20,271 nt of DNA from a virus, in IMG/VR virus record IMGVR_UViG_3300017710_000079, positions 1-20,271 of that record. One strand, 5' to 3'. Below are positions 15,494-20,271 of this stretch, piece by piece (positions within the stretch are counted from its first letter, which is position 1; each line of letters starts with the position of its first letter). The position numbers and the translations under genes were made by a program. The notes under the pieces are model-generated. The model saw only the letters and a list, made by a program, of their open reading frames with translations, had not been told where the DNA came from and made no database searches.

Positions 15494-15776
15494 TTCTACT
15501 CTCGTTTCGTTTACTTATAGACGCTGCTTTCTTTCTGGCATCTGCTTTTGAAGAAGCACCCCAGGCGCGGAGGGATAAGAGCAGCCTAGTAGGTCGCCCC
15601 TTGCTATCACGCTCCGGCCCAGAGTTCCCTGCCATTCGAGCCAGGAAGGACGCTCGGCGAGGGTTATCGCCTGTCTTTACCGGAGCTTTTAGTTTTGAGC
15701 CTGTTGTCCGATTAAAGAAGGCCCGACCAGCAGCGTTTAAACCGCCTTTAGGATTTTGATGTACTTTTTTTACCAC
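15486..15776 (-). CDS. DUF6321-like phage protein
   Basis: From the GTG at 15776 this encodes 96 aa. The conserved part is NPKGGLNAAGRAFFNRTTGS, LKAPVK, NPRRASFLARMAG, GPERDSKGRPTRLLLSLRAW and a final helix SKADARKKAASIS. This set of motifs recurs in small basic phage proteins annotated as DUF6321; function unknown. The frame is open up to an ATG at 15863, but the extra 29 residues are antisense-free shadow sequence of the overlapping upstream gene (same DNA, other frame) and have no ribosome site. GTG at 15776 starts close to the usual family start (KKVHQNPKGG). The start is therefore uncertain. It overlaps the upstream gene by 29 bp and the portal by 8 bp, which suggests coupled translation. 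Confidence 0.75.
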   Translation of the reverse strand: MVKKVHQNPKGGLNAAGRAFFNRTTGSKLKAPVKTGDNPRRASFLARMAGNSGPERDSKGRPTRLLLSLRAWGASSKADARKKAASISKRNESRNA

Positions 15777-15954
15777 GAGGCTTTGCCTTTTTCTTTGGGG
15801 CTTTTTCCTTTGGAGCCTTTCCACCTTCCCACGCTTCATTGACTTCGGGAGTAGAAGGGTCATCCGCGACTAGGTGACCCTTCTCGTTTCTTGCCCTTTT
15901 CGGGTCTGCCTCAACTCTATGAAATACTCTTGGATCTTCTTTAATTTTTGTCAT
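15748..15954 (-). CDS. Small basic phage protein of unknown function
   Basis: This 68-aa protein has VFHRVEADPKRARNEKGHLV (10-29), DDPSTPEVNEAWEGGKAP (31-48) and a Lys-rich tail. The central EKGHxVxDDPSTPxVNEAW pattern appears as a stand-alone small protein in other phages, in my recollection of the family, so it is not just a random frame. No catalytic motif is visible. The ATG overlaps the preceding stop as ATGA. Its 3' end overlaps the DUF6321-like gene in another frame over an A7 run (15765-15771). Confidence 0.6.
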   Translation of the reverse strand: MTKIKEDPRVFHRVEADPKRARNEKGHLVADDPSTPEVNEAWEGGKAPKEKAPKKKAKPRGKKSTSKS

Positions 15955-16624: not shown

Positions 16625-17107
16625 TTATTCAAACCTTACCATTGAATAATAGTCAGCCCCCTCTGGACCAAACTTTCTGTGTTTACACTCTACCTCAAAA
16701 TGTAGTGCTTTGGCAAACCTTAATGCTACCATATGTTGTGATTTTACAAAAATTTGCATCCTTCTGATACCGGATGTAGCCATTACCTCGCTTAAAAGCG
16801 CTCTTGCGCCTATCAAAGTAGACCTTGTGTGATTTTCTAGTCCTTCGCCTGGAATAAACCATGCCTCCACCACGCCAGGCCAAACATCTCTTACACCAAA
16901 CACGCAAATAACTTTGCCTCGACCGATAGCTGCCCAACTCCAGCCATGCTCAGAGTTTTCCCAAACATAATCTAAATACCCAGAAATACTATCGGCATAC
17001 TCTTTTTCGTGTGGCCCCAGGTCTATGCTTAGAAGATGATTGTATTGTAGCGGCACAATCTGTTCGTCCGGCCTCATTTTAAACGTAGGAAGCTGTATAA
17101 GGCCCAT
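16625..17107 (-). CDS. gp13-like GNAT-fold protein
   Basis: This is a 160-aa protein similar in layout to the phage Gp13 / DUF2833 group, named for T7 gp13 and related to GNAT acetyltransferases. Visible are the beta-strand pair WSWAAIGRGKVICVFGVRDV (57-76), EAWFIPGEGL (81-90), the helix after the expected pyrophosphate loop (STLIGARALLSEVM, 96-109), strand RRMQIFV and the C-terminal ALRFAKALHFEVE (128-140). The classical acetyl-CoA loop (Q/R-x-x-G-x-G/A) is degenerate, so catalytic activity is uncertain and a virion-assembly role is possible. The ATG overlaps the terL stop as TAATG with no evident ribosome site, suggesting translational coupling to TerL. Confidence 0.75.
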   Translation of the reverse strand: MGLIQLPTFKMRPDEQIVPLQYNHLLSIDLGPHEKEYADSISGYLDYVWENSEHGWSWAAIGRGKVICVFGVRDVWPGVVEAWFIPGEGLENHTRSTLIGARALLSEVMATSGIRRMQIFVKSQHMVALRFAKALHFEVECKHRKFGPEGADYYSMVRFE

Positions 17108-18630
17108 TAAAACACGCTGAAGTCGCTATTCGCAGTATATGACCCTTGCTGAAACGTAGAGCCATATGATCCTCTTCGTAAGCGTCTTTGTTCACCGCCA
17201 CCTAGCATGAGATACCCAAAAGCATCGCCACAGTGCGAATGTTCATTCTTTACTGGCGCATCTTTAAATCTTTCCTGACCAGCGCCCAGGCTTTGCCTTT
17301 TGAAAAAATACCCACCGCTAAGTGATTTACGCAGCCTTAAACATTTTTTATCGACAACTAGCCCTGGTTTACCGCTTACGAGCCTGGACATTGGGGAAGC
17401 GCCAGCTTCTCGTCTTACCTGAAAAGCATTGCTATCTGTTGGTTGTGCTTTAAATCCGATAGATCTTAGATGATCGAAGGCCGTAACCTCATAGATCTCA
17501 TCGCGTTTATTACCAGCCGGATCACCCCATATCAGGATTTCATTCTTAGAATACCGTTCTGCTATTCTTCCCAGGAGTTCCTGGCCAAATCGCTCAAGCC
17601 CCATGTCAAACGTGACCAGCTCATCGCAAACACGCCACGCACCGCCCTGGGTTCTCTGCCCAAAGATAGCTGCCGGAGTTAAACCAAAGTCAACACCGAT
17701 TTGTATTGGATAATATGGATCTACTTCCACATCACCGGACATCAACTCATCATCATACTCAGGCCAAACTGGTCTGCCTTCCTGGACAAATGTATACATT
17801 CCCTGGGCATAACATCGAATCCAATCTAAATTCTTACCGCCAAGCAGCTGTTGATAGTAACCTGGTGGCAGATTGTTTGCGTTTTCAGCATTTTCATTGA
17901 CACGCCACCATTTTGCACCAGAAAACACAAAGCCTTGGGCATCAGGGTTATCATCCGGCACTTCATCCGGTGAAGCTTGCAAAACACCGCCTGGCTGTCT
18001 GAAGAACGTCCAGGGAAAACTTCCCTTGATTGGGTGCTTTTCTGCTACCTCATGCCACCAATGATCACTATCTGGTGGGTTTGTATCCATCCAAATGCCA
18101 TACCAAGTAGGACCGCCATCAGATTTTGTAGGATATCGGCCAACTCTGTGCGTTAATCCATCGATTACTGCTTTGGGAAGCTCTCTAGCCTCATTAACCC
18201 AGGCACCAGTGAGTTCCAATGATAATAATTTTCTGACGTCTTGCGGAGAAGACAATGCCATGAATATAACTTCGCAATCTATTCCAGGGATATCGCCCCT
18301 GGTTGGGATCTTAATGTGATGCGAAATAGGTGGTTGCCAGCGCATACCGCCCCACACATCTTCGGGAAATAATTCTTGCCAGGTTTTGATAGTTGTCGTG
18401 CGCAGCTCGGGATATGTGTTCCTCACGATGACAAAACGCGAGTACTTGATCCCATCTCTAGGAGATGGCTTTTGCTTGACCGCCCTTAACATTATCTCGG
18501 CTGCGCAACCATAGGACTTACCAGATCCAACCGGACCCATCAAGCCCCTAATAAAACTCTGGTCATGTAAAAACTTCCAAACAGTCGGGCTGTTCTCAAA
18601 GTTTAAATCAAGGCTGGGGATCGCGCTCAT
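17107..18630 (-). CDS. terL: Terminase large subunit
   Basis: This is a 507-aa packaging motor. The N-terminal ATPase has Walker A GPVGSGKS (32-39), a Walker B-like strand ending GAWVNEARE (142-150, catalytic E likely in this segment) and the coupling motif TNPP (183-186). The C-terminal RNase H-like nuclease has VDFG (D314), IWGDPAGNKRDE (D370) and HCGDAFGY (D469), giving the three acidic metal ligands. Length and layout are normal for phage TerL. It starts at 18630 with AGGA 5 nt upstream, inside the 46-aa ORF. It works with TerS and the portal to pump DNA into procapsids. Which end type it makes (cos, pac or terminal repeats) cannot be read from here. Confidence 0.95.
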   Translation of the reverse strand: MSAIPSLDLNFENSPTVWKFLHDQSFIRGLMGPVGSGKSYGCAAEIMLRAVKQKPSPRDGIKYSRFVIVRNTYPELRTTTIKTWQELFPEDVWGGMRWQPPISHHIKIPTRGDIPGIDCEVIFMALSSPQDVRKLLSLELTGAWVNEARELPKAVIDGLTHRVGRYPTKSDGGPTWYGIWMDTNPPDSDHWWHEVAEKHPIKGSFPWTFFRQPGGVLQASPDEVPDDNPDAQGFVFSGAKWWRVNENAENANNLPPGYYQQLLGGKNLDWIRCYAQGMYTFVQEGRPVWPEYDDELMSGDVEVDPYYPIQIGVDFGLTPAAIFGQRTQGGAWRVCDELVTFDMGLERFGQELLGRIAERYSKNEILIWGDPAGNKRDEIYEVTAFDHLRSIGFKAQPTDSNAFQVRREAGASPMSRLVSGKPGLVVDKKCLRLRKSLSGGYFFKRQSLGAGQERFKDAPVKNEHSHCGDAFGYLMLGGGEQRRLRRGSYGSTFQQGSYTANSDFSVF

Positions 18631-18748
18631 TTTTATCCTGCAATGTTTCCTGGCTTATTTGTCTGATTGATCTTAATGCTTCTTCGAGAGCCTCAATCCT
18701 TTGCTCCAGCATTAGAAGTGCTACCTCAAGTCTTGCTGTCTTGTCCAT
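18608..18748 (-). CDS. Small coiled-coil ORF between the terminase genes (46 aa)
   Basis: This ORF encodes MDKTARLEVALLMLEQRIEA followed by LEEALRSIRQISQETLQDKN and ERDPQP. Its ATG at 18748 has a GGAGGT ribosome site 5 nt upstream (18759-18754), which is the best-placed site in this cluster, while terS itself lacks a clear one. It begins within the last codons of terS in a different frame, fills the gap of about 95 bp before terL and ends 23 bp inside terL. The sequence is amphipathic with leucines in heptad-like spacing (L7, L11, L14, L21, L25) and predicts one helix, possibly a dimer. I do not recognise the family. Small helical proteins are sometimes packaging accessories; that role is inference from position. 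Confidence 0.6.
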   Translation of the reverse strand: MDKTARLEVALLMLEQRIEALEEALRSIRQISQETLQDKNERDPQP

Positions 18749-19145
18749 CAATGACCTCCGCATACTCAGTTGTTTGCGGCCCCTTCATGTTAATACCAAC
18801 AATCGAAGGCTTATCACTCTCTTGATCTGGACTATCCAGAAACCCAGCTGCTTTAGCCAGGACACGCAACACCGAAACCTTATCGTGCATCTCAATCGCA
18901 ACCCGACCATCTGGCATAGGTGTTATTTTTTTAATAGCTCTCAACGCATAATCAGGAATATCCTTTTCATCCTTCATCGTACCATCAAGATTAATAATCT
19001 CAGTAATCGAAGTTGTACCCAGAGCAATCAATTCCTGGGCAACAACCTCTTTGTTACTTTCTAACGTGGCACTCGTCCTGACCTTTTTCTGTGTAACGCG
19101 TACACCACCAAACCGACCAATAGGAGTTTGCCTCGTTCTAGCCAT
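18726..19145 (-). CDS. terS: Terminase small subunit
   Basis: This is a 139-aa protein. The recognisable part is NLDGTMKDEKDIPDYALRAI (52-71), GRVAIEMHDKV (80-90) and LRVLAKAAGFLD (93-104), the pattern of the C-terminal half of Terminase_2-type small subunits (LDG, ALRAIK, HDKxxALRxLGK). The usual N-terminal helix-turn-helix region is not obvious. Residues 1-30 are basic and Gly/Thr-rich (MARTRQTPIGRFGGVRVTQK), and may bind DNA in a different way. Immediate proximity to terL supports the call. The ATG overlaps the preceding stop as TAATG. Confidence 0.8.
   Translation of the reverse strand: MARTRQTPIGRFGGVRVTQKKVRTSATLESNKEVVAQELIALGTTSITEIINLDGTMKDEKDIPDYALRAIKKITPMPDGRVAIEMHDKVSVLRVLAKAAGFLDSPDQESDKPSIVGINMKGPQTTEYAEVIDGQDSKT
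18754..18759 (-). promoter_or_regulatory. Ribosome binding site that decides the 46-aa ORF
   Basis: GGAGGT on the minus strand, 5 nt before the ATG at 18748, inside the end of terS. It is a full-strength Shine-Dalgarno sequence at an ideal distance, and no other start codon lies close enough to use it. Confidence 0.7.
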
Positions 19146-19444
19146 TAAATCAATAACAGCTTATCGCCGTCCCATTTTTTGTTCTTCATGTCTTGGTATG
19201 TTTCGCTATCTTTAGAAATTTCAAGAAAAAACTCAGGATCACCATCCCATCTCTCAGGCCCAATAACAATACCTGGCGCTCTATCCTCACCCCTTTCGTT
19301 ATGATACGAACTCACGCCAAATAACTTTCTATCAAGTTCAATAAAGCTTTCGCTTAATTCGTTATCTCCATCACGCTCGTCATCTCGATACGCATTCAAA
19401 GATTTTCTAAGCAAGAAATATTCATACGGTGTCAATACAATCAC
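19145..19444 (-). CDS. Hypothetical protein upstream of terS
   Basis: This is a 99-aa acidic protein starting with GTG at 19444, supported by AGGAGGT a few nt upstream that overlaps the stop codon of the previous gene. The N-terminus MIVLTPYEYFLLRKSLNAYR looks like a helix. The rest is Asp/Glu/Gly-rich with two WDGD motifs (FERWDGD-like at about 64-68 and KKWDGDKLLLI at the end). The family is not recognised and no catalytic motif is visible. It is co-transcribed with terS (1-bp overlap). Confidence 0.65.
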   Translation of the reverse strand: MIVLTPYEYFLLRKSLNAYRDDERDGDNELSESFIELDRKLFGVSSYHNERGEDRAPGIVIGPERWDGDPEFFLEISKDSETYQDMKNKKWDGDKLLLI

Positions 19445-19453
19445 AGCAACCTC

Positions 19454-19711
19454 CTAAAATGGGATCTCATCTTCAAAATCTTTGCCAGCATTATTATTTT
19501 GCTGAGAAGATTGATTATCCAACTTACCCTTATCGTCCATCGGAAATAAGCTTAACCAAATCTCGGCTTCCTGGTTAGGTATCGGCAACGCATTTAACTT
19601 TATACGCATACCCTTACTGTCCTCAAAGGCTATACCCATCTTCACCCAATCAGATTTATCAGGATCACTCCTGCGTTTCTGACCCTGTACTACGTTATAC
19701 ATTTTTTTCAT
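19454..19711 (-). CDS. Small protein with an SSB-type acidic C-terminal tip
   Basis: This is an 85-aa protein. MYNVVQGQKRRSDPDKSDWV, then KMGIAFEDSKGMRIKLNALP and WLSLFP form a short beta-rich domain, followed by a Gln/Asn-rich linker and the terminus DFEDEIPF. That end closely resembles the D-D-I-P-F tip with which single-stranded DNA-binding proteins recruit partners. The body is shorter than a standard OB-fold SSB (about 110 aa domain), so a small SSB-like or SSB-tip-mimicking replication accessory is proposed, not a proven SSB. AGGAAGG lies upstream of the ATG at 19711; a second in-frame ATG is three codons later. It is the first gene after the 200-bp intergenic region. Confidence 0.6.
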   Translation of the reverse strand: MKKMYNVVQGQKRRSDPDKSDWVKMGIAFEDSKGMRIKLNALPIPNQEAEIWLSLFPMDDKGKLDNQSSQQNNNAGKDFEDEIPF

Positions 19712-19787
19712 TTTAGTTCCTTCCTATTATTCTGGTATCGCACTTATCTCAGGAAAAATCCAGAAAATATTTATGTGGTACACTGTA

Positions 19788-19837
19788 GCAGTACGCCAGG
19801 GGGGTGGGGGCCAAGGGTGTCACTTTTGCAGAACGCC
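19788..19837 (+). repeat. Pair of GCAGWACGCC direct repeats
   Basis: GCAGTACGCC at 19788-19797 and GCAGAACGCC at 19828-19837 differ at one base and are 40 bp apart, roughly four helical turns, so they lie on the same DNA face. They flank the G-rich tract. Candidate binding sites for a phage protein such as TerS or a regulator. Confidence 0.5.
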
Positions 19838-19869
19838 TGACATTTTTTTTATTGCGGCTCAAAAATTAA

Positions 19870-19885
19870 CATAATGTATATTATG
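19870..19885. promoter_or_regulatory. Dyad CATAAT-N4-ATTATG, possible operator
   Basis: Six-base inverted arms around a GTAT centre overlap the proposed -10 element. Such placement would let a dimeric repressor block the promoter. No regulator gene is in the window. Confidence 0.4.
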
Positions 19886-19909
19886 CGAAAACCTATGGCG
19901 TTTTGTCAT
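19880..19909 (-). promoter_or_regulatory. Candidate promoter for the packaging operon
   Basis: On the minus strand ATGACA (19909-19904) is followed after 18 nt by CATAAT (19885-19880), each one base from consensus. The -10 lies inside the dyad at 19870-19885. Transcription would start about 160 nt before the ATG at 19711. Confidence 0.4.
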
Positions 19910-19913
19910 ACCC

Positions 19914-20271
19914 TCATAACCTTTTATCCTTCACTATTCCTTTTATTATATCGTTTGTTCTATAATCCTTAGACTTTCCTAGTGCTTTTGATACCGGCAC
20001 TTGGAAATATCCTATGCCACGCGCCATATCGCGTCGGTTTTTGTAGCAGTATTCGGCATGGTTCTTCAGTATTGCAGACCATTCCTCCATTGATAGTCCG
20101 TCTTTAATCCAGTGTGACACAGTCTGAATATCTCTTTCATTAATGTTGCGAGGTGTTCCATAACTTTCACATATCCTCAGAAACAAAGAACAAAACCTTC
20201 TAGCATCATTATATATATTATCTTTATTATTCGTTATAATGTTCTCGTTTGTGTTACCTCTAGGTGTAACA
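19914..20271 (-). CDS. C-terminal part of a probable phage replication-initiation-like protein (5' end outside window)
   Basis: The frame is open from the right edge to the stop at 19914, about 118 residues; a TTG inside it at 20186 is not a convincing start. From the edge it reads VTPRGNTNENIITNNKDN, then ARRFCSLFLRICESYG, a helical middle (ISVSHW-like segment with TVSHWIKDGLSMEEWSAILK) and YFQVPVSKALGKSKDY near the end. The Asn-rich linker after VTP followed by a helical C-terminal domain is a layout seen in phage replication initiators of the O / helix-turn-helix type. With the SSB-tip protein downstream, a replication role is plausible but not proven; no catalytic motif is present in the visible part. 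Confidence 0.5.
   Translation of the reverse strand, partial: VTPRGNTNENIITNNKDNIYNDARRFCSLFLRICESYGTPRNINERDIQTVSHWIKDGLSMEEWSAILKNHAEYCYKNRRDMARGIGYFQVPVSKALGKSKDYRTNDIIKGIVKDKRL

Follow-up and report, generated by a model that had tools for sequence, protein, structure and literature searches.

A 46-codon gene under purifying selection bridges terS and terL in a relative of Methylophilales phage MEP301 and is likely an accessory gene of an exchange slot

At the border between the two terminase subunit genes of the window (the whole viral record analysed here, 20,271 nt), a small ORF lies on the minus strand and overlaps both of its neighbours, the arrangement of the region being as follows:

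17107–18630, minus strand: terL, 507 aa (PHROG terminase large subunit, E 6e-26; 66.7% to the TerL of MEP301)
18608–18630, minus strand: 23-nt overlap between the end of the small ORF and the start of terL (from the coordinates of both ORFs)
18608–18748, minus strand: small ORF, 46 codons plus stop, whose translation gives a predicted single-helix protein of family F1 in a shortened form
18636–18639, minus strand: AGGA, the weaker ribosome site of terL, within the small ORF (from the sequence; 5 nt spacing; -4.1 kcal/mol)
18726–18748, minus strand: 23-nt overlap between the end of terS and the start of the small ORF (from the coordinates of both ORFs)
18726–19145, minus strand: terS, 139 aa (Pfam Terminase_2, E 2.1e-5, 25.6 bits, slightly below the cut-off of 26.1)
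18754–18759, minus strand: GGAGGT, the ribosome site of the small ORF, within terS codons (from the sequence; -10.2 kcal/mol; the same position is used in relatives)

The 46-aa product of the small ORF (18608–18748, minus strand) is MDKTARLEVALLMLEQRIEALEEALRSIRQISQETLQDKNERDPQP, and the 3' end of terS (19145–18726, minus strand), which contains both the GGAGGT and the ATG of the small ORF, is GCGGAGGTCATTGATGGACAAGACAGCAAGACTTGA. The coordinates of terS and terL leave a gap of 95 nt (18631–18725) that the small ORF fills, overlapping terS and terL just as the original prediction had described, and the GGAGGT that it had placed 5 nt from the ATG is indeed present, with a predicted anti-SD pairing energy better, as had also been claimed, than that of terS (-10.2 vs. 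-0.7 kcal/mol, with terL at -4.1 kcal/mol) and ranking third among the 22 window starts, which were listed by hand. An alternative in-frame ATG at 18763 would give a product of 51 aa and is without a comparable ribosome site. By TerL, no annotated phage comes nearer than MEP301, which is also the closest phage in culture. Elsewhere in the window, minus-strand ORFs of 68 and 125 aa share 116 nt, read in different frames, at 15748–15863.

As a six-frame scan of the window returns 102 ORFs of 40 aa or more, which is what might be said in favour of a chance ORF, an open frame by itself is little evidence of a gene. Codons 9–39 of the small ORF, however, which are free of overlap with both terS and terL, show a pN/pS of 0.25 (pS 0.654, pN 0.161; 18 of the 19 distinct relatives, the most divergent one, L028, being excluded), and among 12 close relatives the variable sites number 9, 4 and 26 of 31 at codon positions 1, 2 and 3, respectively. 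When the non-overlapping codons were compared pairwise with the window sequence (L002) as the reference and significance was assessed by 20,000 randomisations, 12 synonymous and 1 non-synonymous differences were counted for L017, 13:2 for L021, 12:2 for L015 and 13:7 for L005 (0 of the 20,000 randomisations being as extreme in each case), and 7:2 for L003 (5 of 20,000); the two other frames of the same strand gave 6:45 and 1:50 over four pairs, and in the window itself they are interrupted by 4 and 2 stops. The purifying selection in the non-overlapping part that the original prediction had proposed to look for is thus there, lifting the small ORF above the chance expectation, and together with the pairwise synonymous excess it rules out a chance ORF, to which we attach practically no credence. 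That the small ORF is a real protein-coding gene under natural selection, as had been suspected, is near certain.

AlphaFold2 (14 aligned rows) predicts one helix for its product, spanning residues 3–42 at a mean pLDDT of 88.5, in agreement with the small helical protein initially envisaged, and the sequence suggests that the protein probably self-associates as a coiled coil. The coil ARLEVAxxMLExRI aligns with longer members of the family designated here as F1, which run on into EIRDxAxxSEGVEFYAMLAxKAL; their conserved SEGVEFYAM segment is absent from the window copy, which, judging from this alignment, is a shortened F1 member. In a wider scan covering the best 80 of 90 relatives plus one bacterial contig (81 loci), the longer form was seen with many different N-termini, and this terL was found at most 250 nt downstream of F1 in 30 of the 81 loci and not in the other 51, some of which end soon after the match, so that the neighbour would fall beyond the sequence end. 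F1 follows a large ORF that we take to be primase-like in L239 and lies upstream of a presumably RusA-like ORF in L253. A scan of genome contigs returned one F1-like match, in a Rhodobacteraceae metagenome bin.

Searches of the F1 members queried gave PHROG matches of E 0.0037 at best (phrog_17876, one distant member) and no Pfam or NCBIfam match over the curated cut-off, and three F1 query sequences found no match at E ≤ 1 among 50,697 annotated phage records. The best Pfam match of the window protein itself is DnaB_bind (E 0.0076, below its cut-off), and, with this and phrog_17876 being weak matches and the only ones, assigning a function to F1 by database was given up. The small protein has no match to Terminase_2 (PF03592) at E 1 and no nuclease match in the PHROG, Pfam and NCBIfam searches. 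An RNA element was rejected, as no Rfam family reaches its gathering score anywhere in the window. No paper on the small ORF turned up in the literature searches, and SEGVEFYAM occurs in none of the papers searched.

The content of the terS–terL border changes among the relatives of the window. Of 80 TerL relatives (84–100% identity; the best 80 of 383, many of them near-copies), 74 have a readable junction, and these hold F1 (37), nothing (19), a transporter (7), a coil designated F3 (7), a methyltransferase (2) or something else (2), i.e., ORFs other than F1 occupy the slot in 18; counted as 53 distinct junction contexts, the respective numbers are 27, 10, 6, 6, 2 and 2. Mapping the slot content onto a TerL tree (58 distinct rows) takes at least 16 changes, and near-identical TerLs accompany F1, a transporter, a methyltransferase or an empty slot. 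F1 is kept without exception in the 18 rows of the tree closest to the window, so it may matter more there than “accessory” suggests. No F1 copy was found in 14 of the 19 empty-junction records, nor in L053, although these records are fragments of 5–48 kb, which leaves the absence of F1 short of proven; as a control, the same search recovered all 13 known carriers, of which 6 are model members, and did not match MEP301.

As to the cargo other than F1, the transporter matches Pfam Vut_1 above the cut-off and the NCBIfam queuosine precursor transporter below it, and occurs in L026, L040, L042, L049, L068 and L069 as well as in L025 (1888–3014), where it forms a cassette with a protein of 201 aa (phrog_15826, of unknown function) and ends inside terL. 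A strong PHROG DNA methyltransferase match (5e-33) was obtained for the slot ORF of L063 (2513–3001, the one tested), and L046 has such a slot ORF too. In L015 (554–1207; counted as F1), a GIY-YIG-type endonuclease ORF, which falls slightly below the Pfam cut-off and matches a PHROG endonuclease at 5e-9, sits between F1 and terL, its start overlapped for 23 nt by F1 and its own end lying 29 nt inside terL. A small helix-turn-helix-like protein is encoded between terS and coil F3 in L064 (2463–2687; similar ORFs in L066, L067 and L070), the tested copy from L064 matching HTH_31 below the cut-off and phrog_664; as TerS here matches the C-terminal part of Terminase_2 alone, a split TerS is conceivable.

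Morons are defined by variable presence among close relatives and by a promoter and terminator of their own. The small ORF is present in some close relatives and replaced or absent in others, and no consensus site was found in the slot (17000–20271 scanned, with other promoter types outside the scan). Because relatives swap or lack the small gene, an accessory gene is more probable than a permanent component of the motor for packaging, and the small ORF is likely an accessory gene in a terS–terL exchange slot.

A GGAGGT or GAGGT embedded in the last terS codons, 5 nt before the ATG, is found in all 37 F1, all 7 transporter and both methyltransferase junctions, and, in a weak form, in 3 of the 7 F3 junctions. 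When the junction is empty, GGAGGT, GAGGT or GAGG at 5–6 nt precedes terL itself in 13 of 19 cases. In the remaining 6, what follows the embedded site is a 10-codon ORF with its stop within terL. This ORF, MMKNERDTQP (L050–L052 and L054–L056), starts at the embedded site at the terS end and might be a remnant of lost cargo. At the other side of the slot, the last ORF ends 4–38 nt inside terL in 73 of the 74 window-clade junctions (the exception being L053), and the median terL site is -8.0 in empty junctions (10 contexts), -4.2 behind F1 (24) and -3.7 behind the transporter (3), the site and overlap values depending on the rule chosen for the terL start. The sites behind F1 and the transporter are weaker than those of the empty junctions (Mann–Whitney p 1.3e-5, for distinct contexts that are related by descent), whereas the strong terL site behind F3 (-8.8, 6 contexts) speaks against a simple rule.

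An upstream stop overlapping a downstream start, as expected of a translationally coupled pair, is seen both here (23 nt) and in 73 of the 74 junctions; the other expectation, a downstream start that is masked or without its own site, does not hold, as terL has its AGGA at 5 nt and the predicted RNA leaves its start open (unpaired 0.66, vs. 0.19 for the small-ORF start). These values are more in keeping with the small ORF being coupled to terS than with terL being coupled to the small ORF, and coupling by an unmasking of the terL start was rejected because that start is already open. Overlapping genes are common in compact phage genomes, and so are weak sites, with 13 of 54 MEP301 starts at -2.9 or weaker, so that neither proves coupling. 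Translational coupling of the small ORF to terL is nevertheless a plausible prediction, and the overlap, the succession of a strong and a weaker site and their persistence through cargo exchange fit a hand-over of ribosomes from the slot gene to terL, the chances of which we consider about even.

Codons 1–9 of the small ORF (18722–18748) resemble those of terL in relatives, which may indicate a duplicated junction. In terL-start likeness, window-type starts outrank nearly all of the 264 control starts, and the top 5% is reached by 10 of 32 distinct cargo starts, nine of them being of the related window type, so a duplicated terL start remains a lead.

The MEP301-like sister clade has a coil of its own, F2, which precedes terL in 74 of 74 readable junctions (81 loci), is predicted to be helical, evolves under selection (pN/pS 0.21 over 31 of the 50 distinct sequences) and includes MEP301 gp46 (QRV71474.1, hypothetical protein). 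Like the window protein, gp46 is a short predicted helix encoded directly before terL behind a strong ribosome site, and its gene overlaps the terL start, in this case by 11 nt; unlike the window protein, to which it has no detectable sequence relation, it is kept in every readable junction of its clade. The F2 ORFs end inside terL in 67 of the 74 junctions and upstream of it in 7, a terS-embedded ribosome site is found in 20 of the 74, and terL is almost without a site (-0.9, 30 contexts). The median for F2 starts is -8.3, a value biased by taking the best start within the first 20 codons. A PAPS-reductase-type ORF lies between coil F2 and terL in L140 (738–1538, tested), and also in L141 and L163. 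The search for F2 in 15 window-clade records found none, both sister-clade controls being positive, and hhalign detected no homology among F1, F2 and F3, so that a common origin of the three coils found before terL was rejected.

In phage T7, genes 18.5 and 18.7 (Rz/Rz1) lie between terS and terL and are thus small genes in the same place as the window ORF. The window protein differs from Rz/Rz1 in having no cysteine and no hydrophobic membrane stretch, i.e., neither the lipobox nor the membrane anchor of a spanin. The terminase neighbourhood is described in PMC10448857 as a hot spot of exchange and of homing endonucleases, which, like the slot studied here, lies beside the terminase and has unstable content (see the GIY-YIG-type ORF of L015), but the window cargo is not a nuclease and neither is most of the cargo in this slot. 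The same paper describes an HNH nuclease gene upstream of the terminase in HK97, which, like the window ORF, is a small gene beside the terminase, and whose product, unlike the window protein with its lack of nuclease matches, is a nuclease acting together with the terminase (PMC10448857).

The explanation that we lean towards, while crediting it with somewhat less than an even chance, is that of an accessory gene for a helical protein, located in an exchange slot of MEP301-related phages and passing ribosomes on to terL. Ribosomes arriving at the end of terS would start the small ORF at the strong GGAGGT buried in the terS codons, its translation would yield a short helical, probably self-associating protein, and the ribosomes would stop 23 nt inside terL, from where some might continue to terL, aided by the weaker AGGA; the protein itself would most likely be a helical adaptor or inhibitor acting on another protein rather than an obligate part of the packaging motor. 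It could also be that the same accessory gene overlaps terL as a matter of mere tight packing and that terL is translated independently, which is what the AGGA of terL, its open start and the strong terL sites behind F3 would argue for; we find this rather unlikely, however, as, regardless of the cargo, 73 of 74 junctions have a last ORF that reaches into terL, whose own site is weaker when F1 or the transporter lies upstream.

The packaging cofactor of the original prediction, a helix that would bind TerS or TerL and aid the motor in this subclade, with the unrelated coils F2 and F3 doing likewise elsewhere, has in its favour the selected and predictedly helical coil before terL in all readable MEP-clade junctions, the retention of F1 in the 18 rows closest to the window on the tree and the HK97 nuclease that, according to PMC10448857, acts with the terminase. 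The claim was nonetheless left unsupported, as TerS runs directly into TerL in 19 of 74 related junctions, 14 of these 19 records and L053 show no F1 copy elsewhere, the 15 window-clade records show no F2 copy, F1 members are also located away from this terL and the three coils have no detectable relation; a cofactor is possible but unlikely overall, and disfavoured for the window's clade. Were the act of translation alone what matters and the peptide irrelevant, the ten-codon ORF preceding terL in 6 of the 19 empty junctions would be readily understood, but the conservation of amino acids outside the overlaps makes this very improbable, and a fusion of the small ORF with TerL by frameshifting, in spite of the overlapping frames, is scarcely credible, given that the phase requires a +1 shift and that terL has its own ATG and AGGA.

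On a broader level, it is possible, if doubtful, that the terS–terL border acts as a translation-based “plug-in” slot: the buried site would be terL's own when the junction is bare, the cargo would capture it, terL would then depend on handed-over ribosomes and each exchange would retune the TerS:TerL ratio, with the window gene being one such plug and a selected helical protein at the same time. This analysis adds F1 as an uncharacterised phage protein family, and the lesson for annotation is that an ORF of fewer than 50 codons in a gap of the terS–terL type can be real. The bare-to-occupied junctions accompanied by nearly identical TerLs, in turn, represent a natural series for the terminase subunit ratio under gene insertion.
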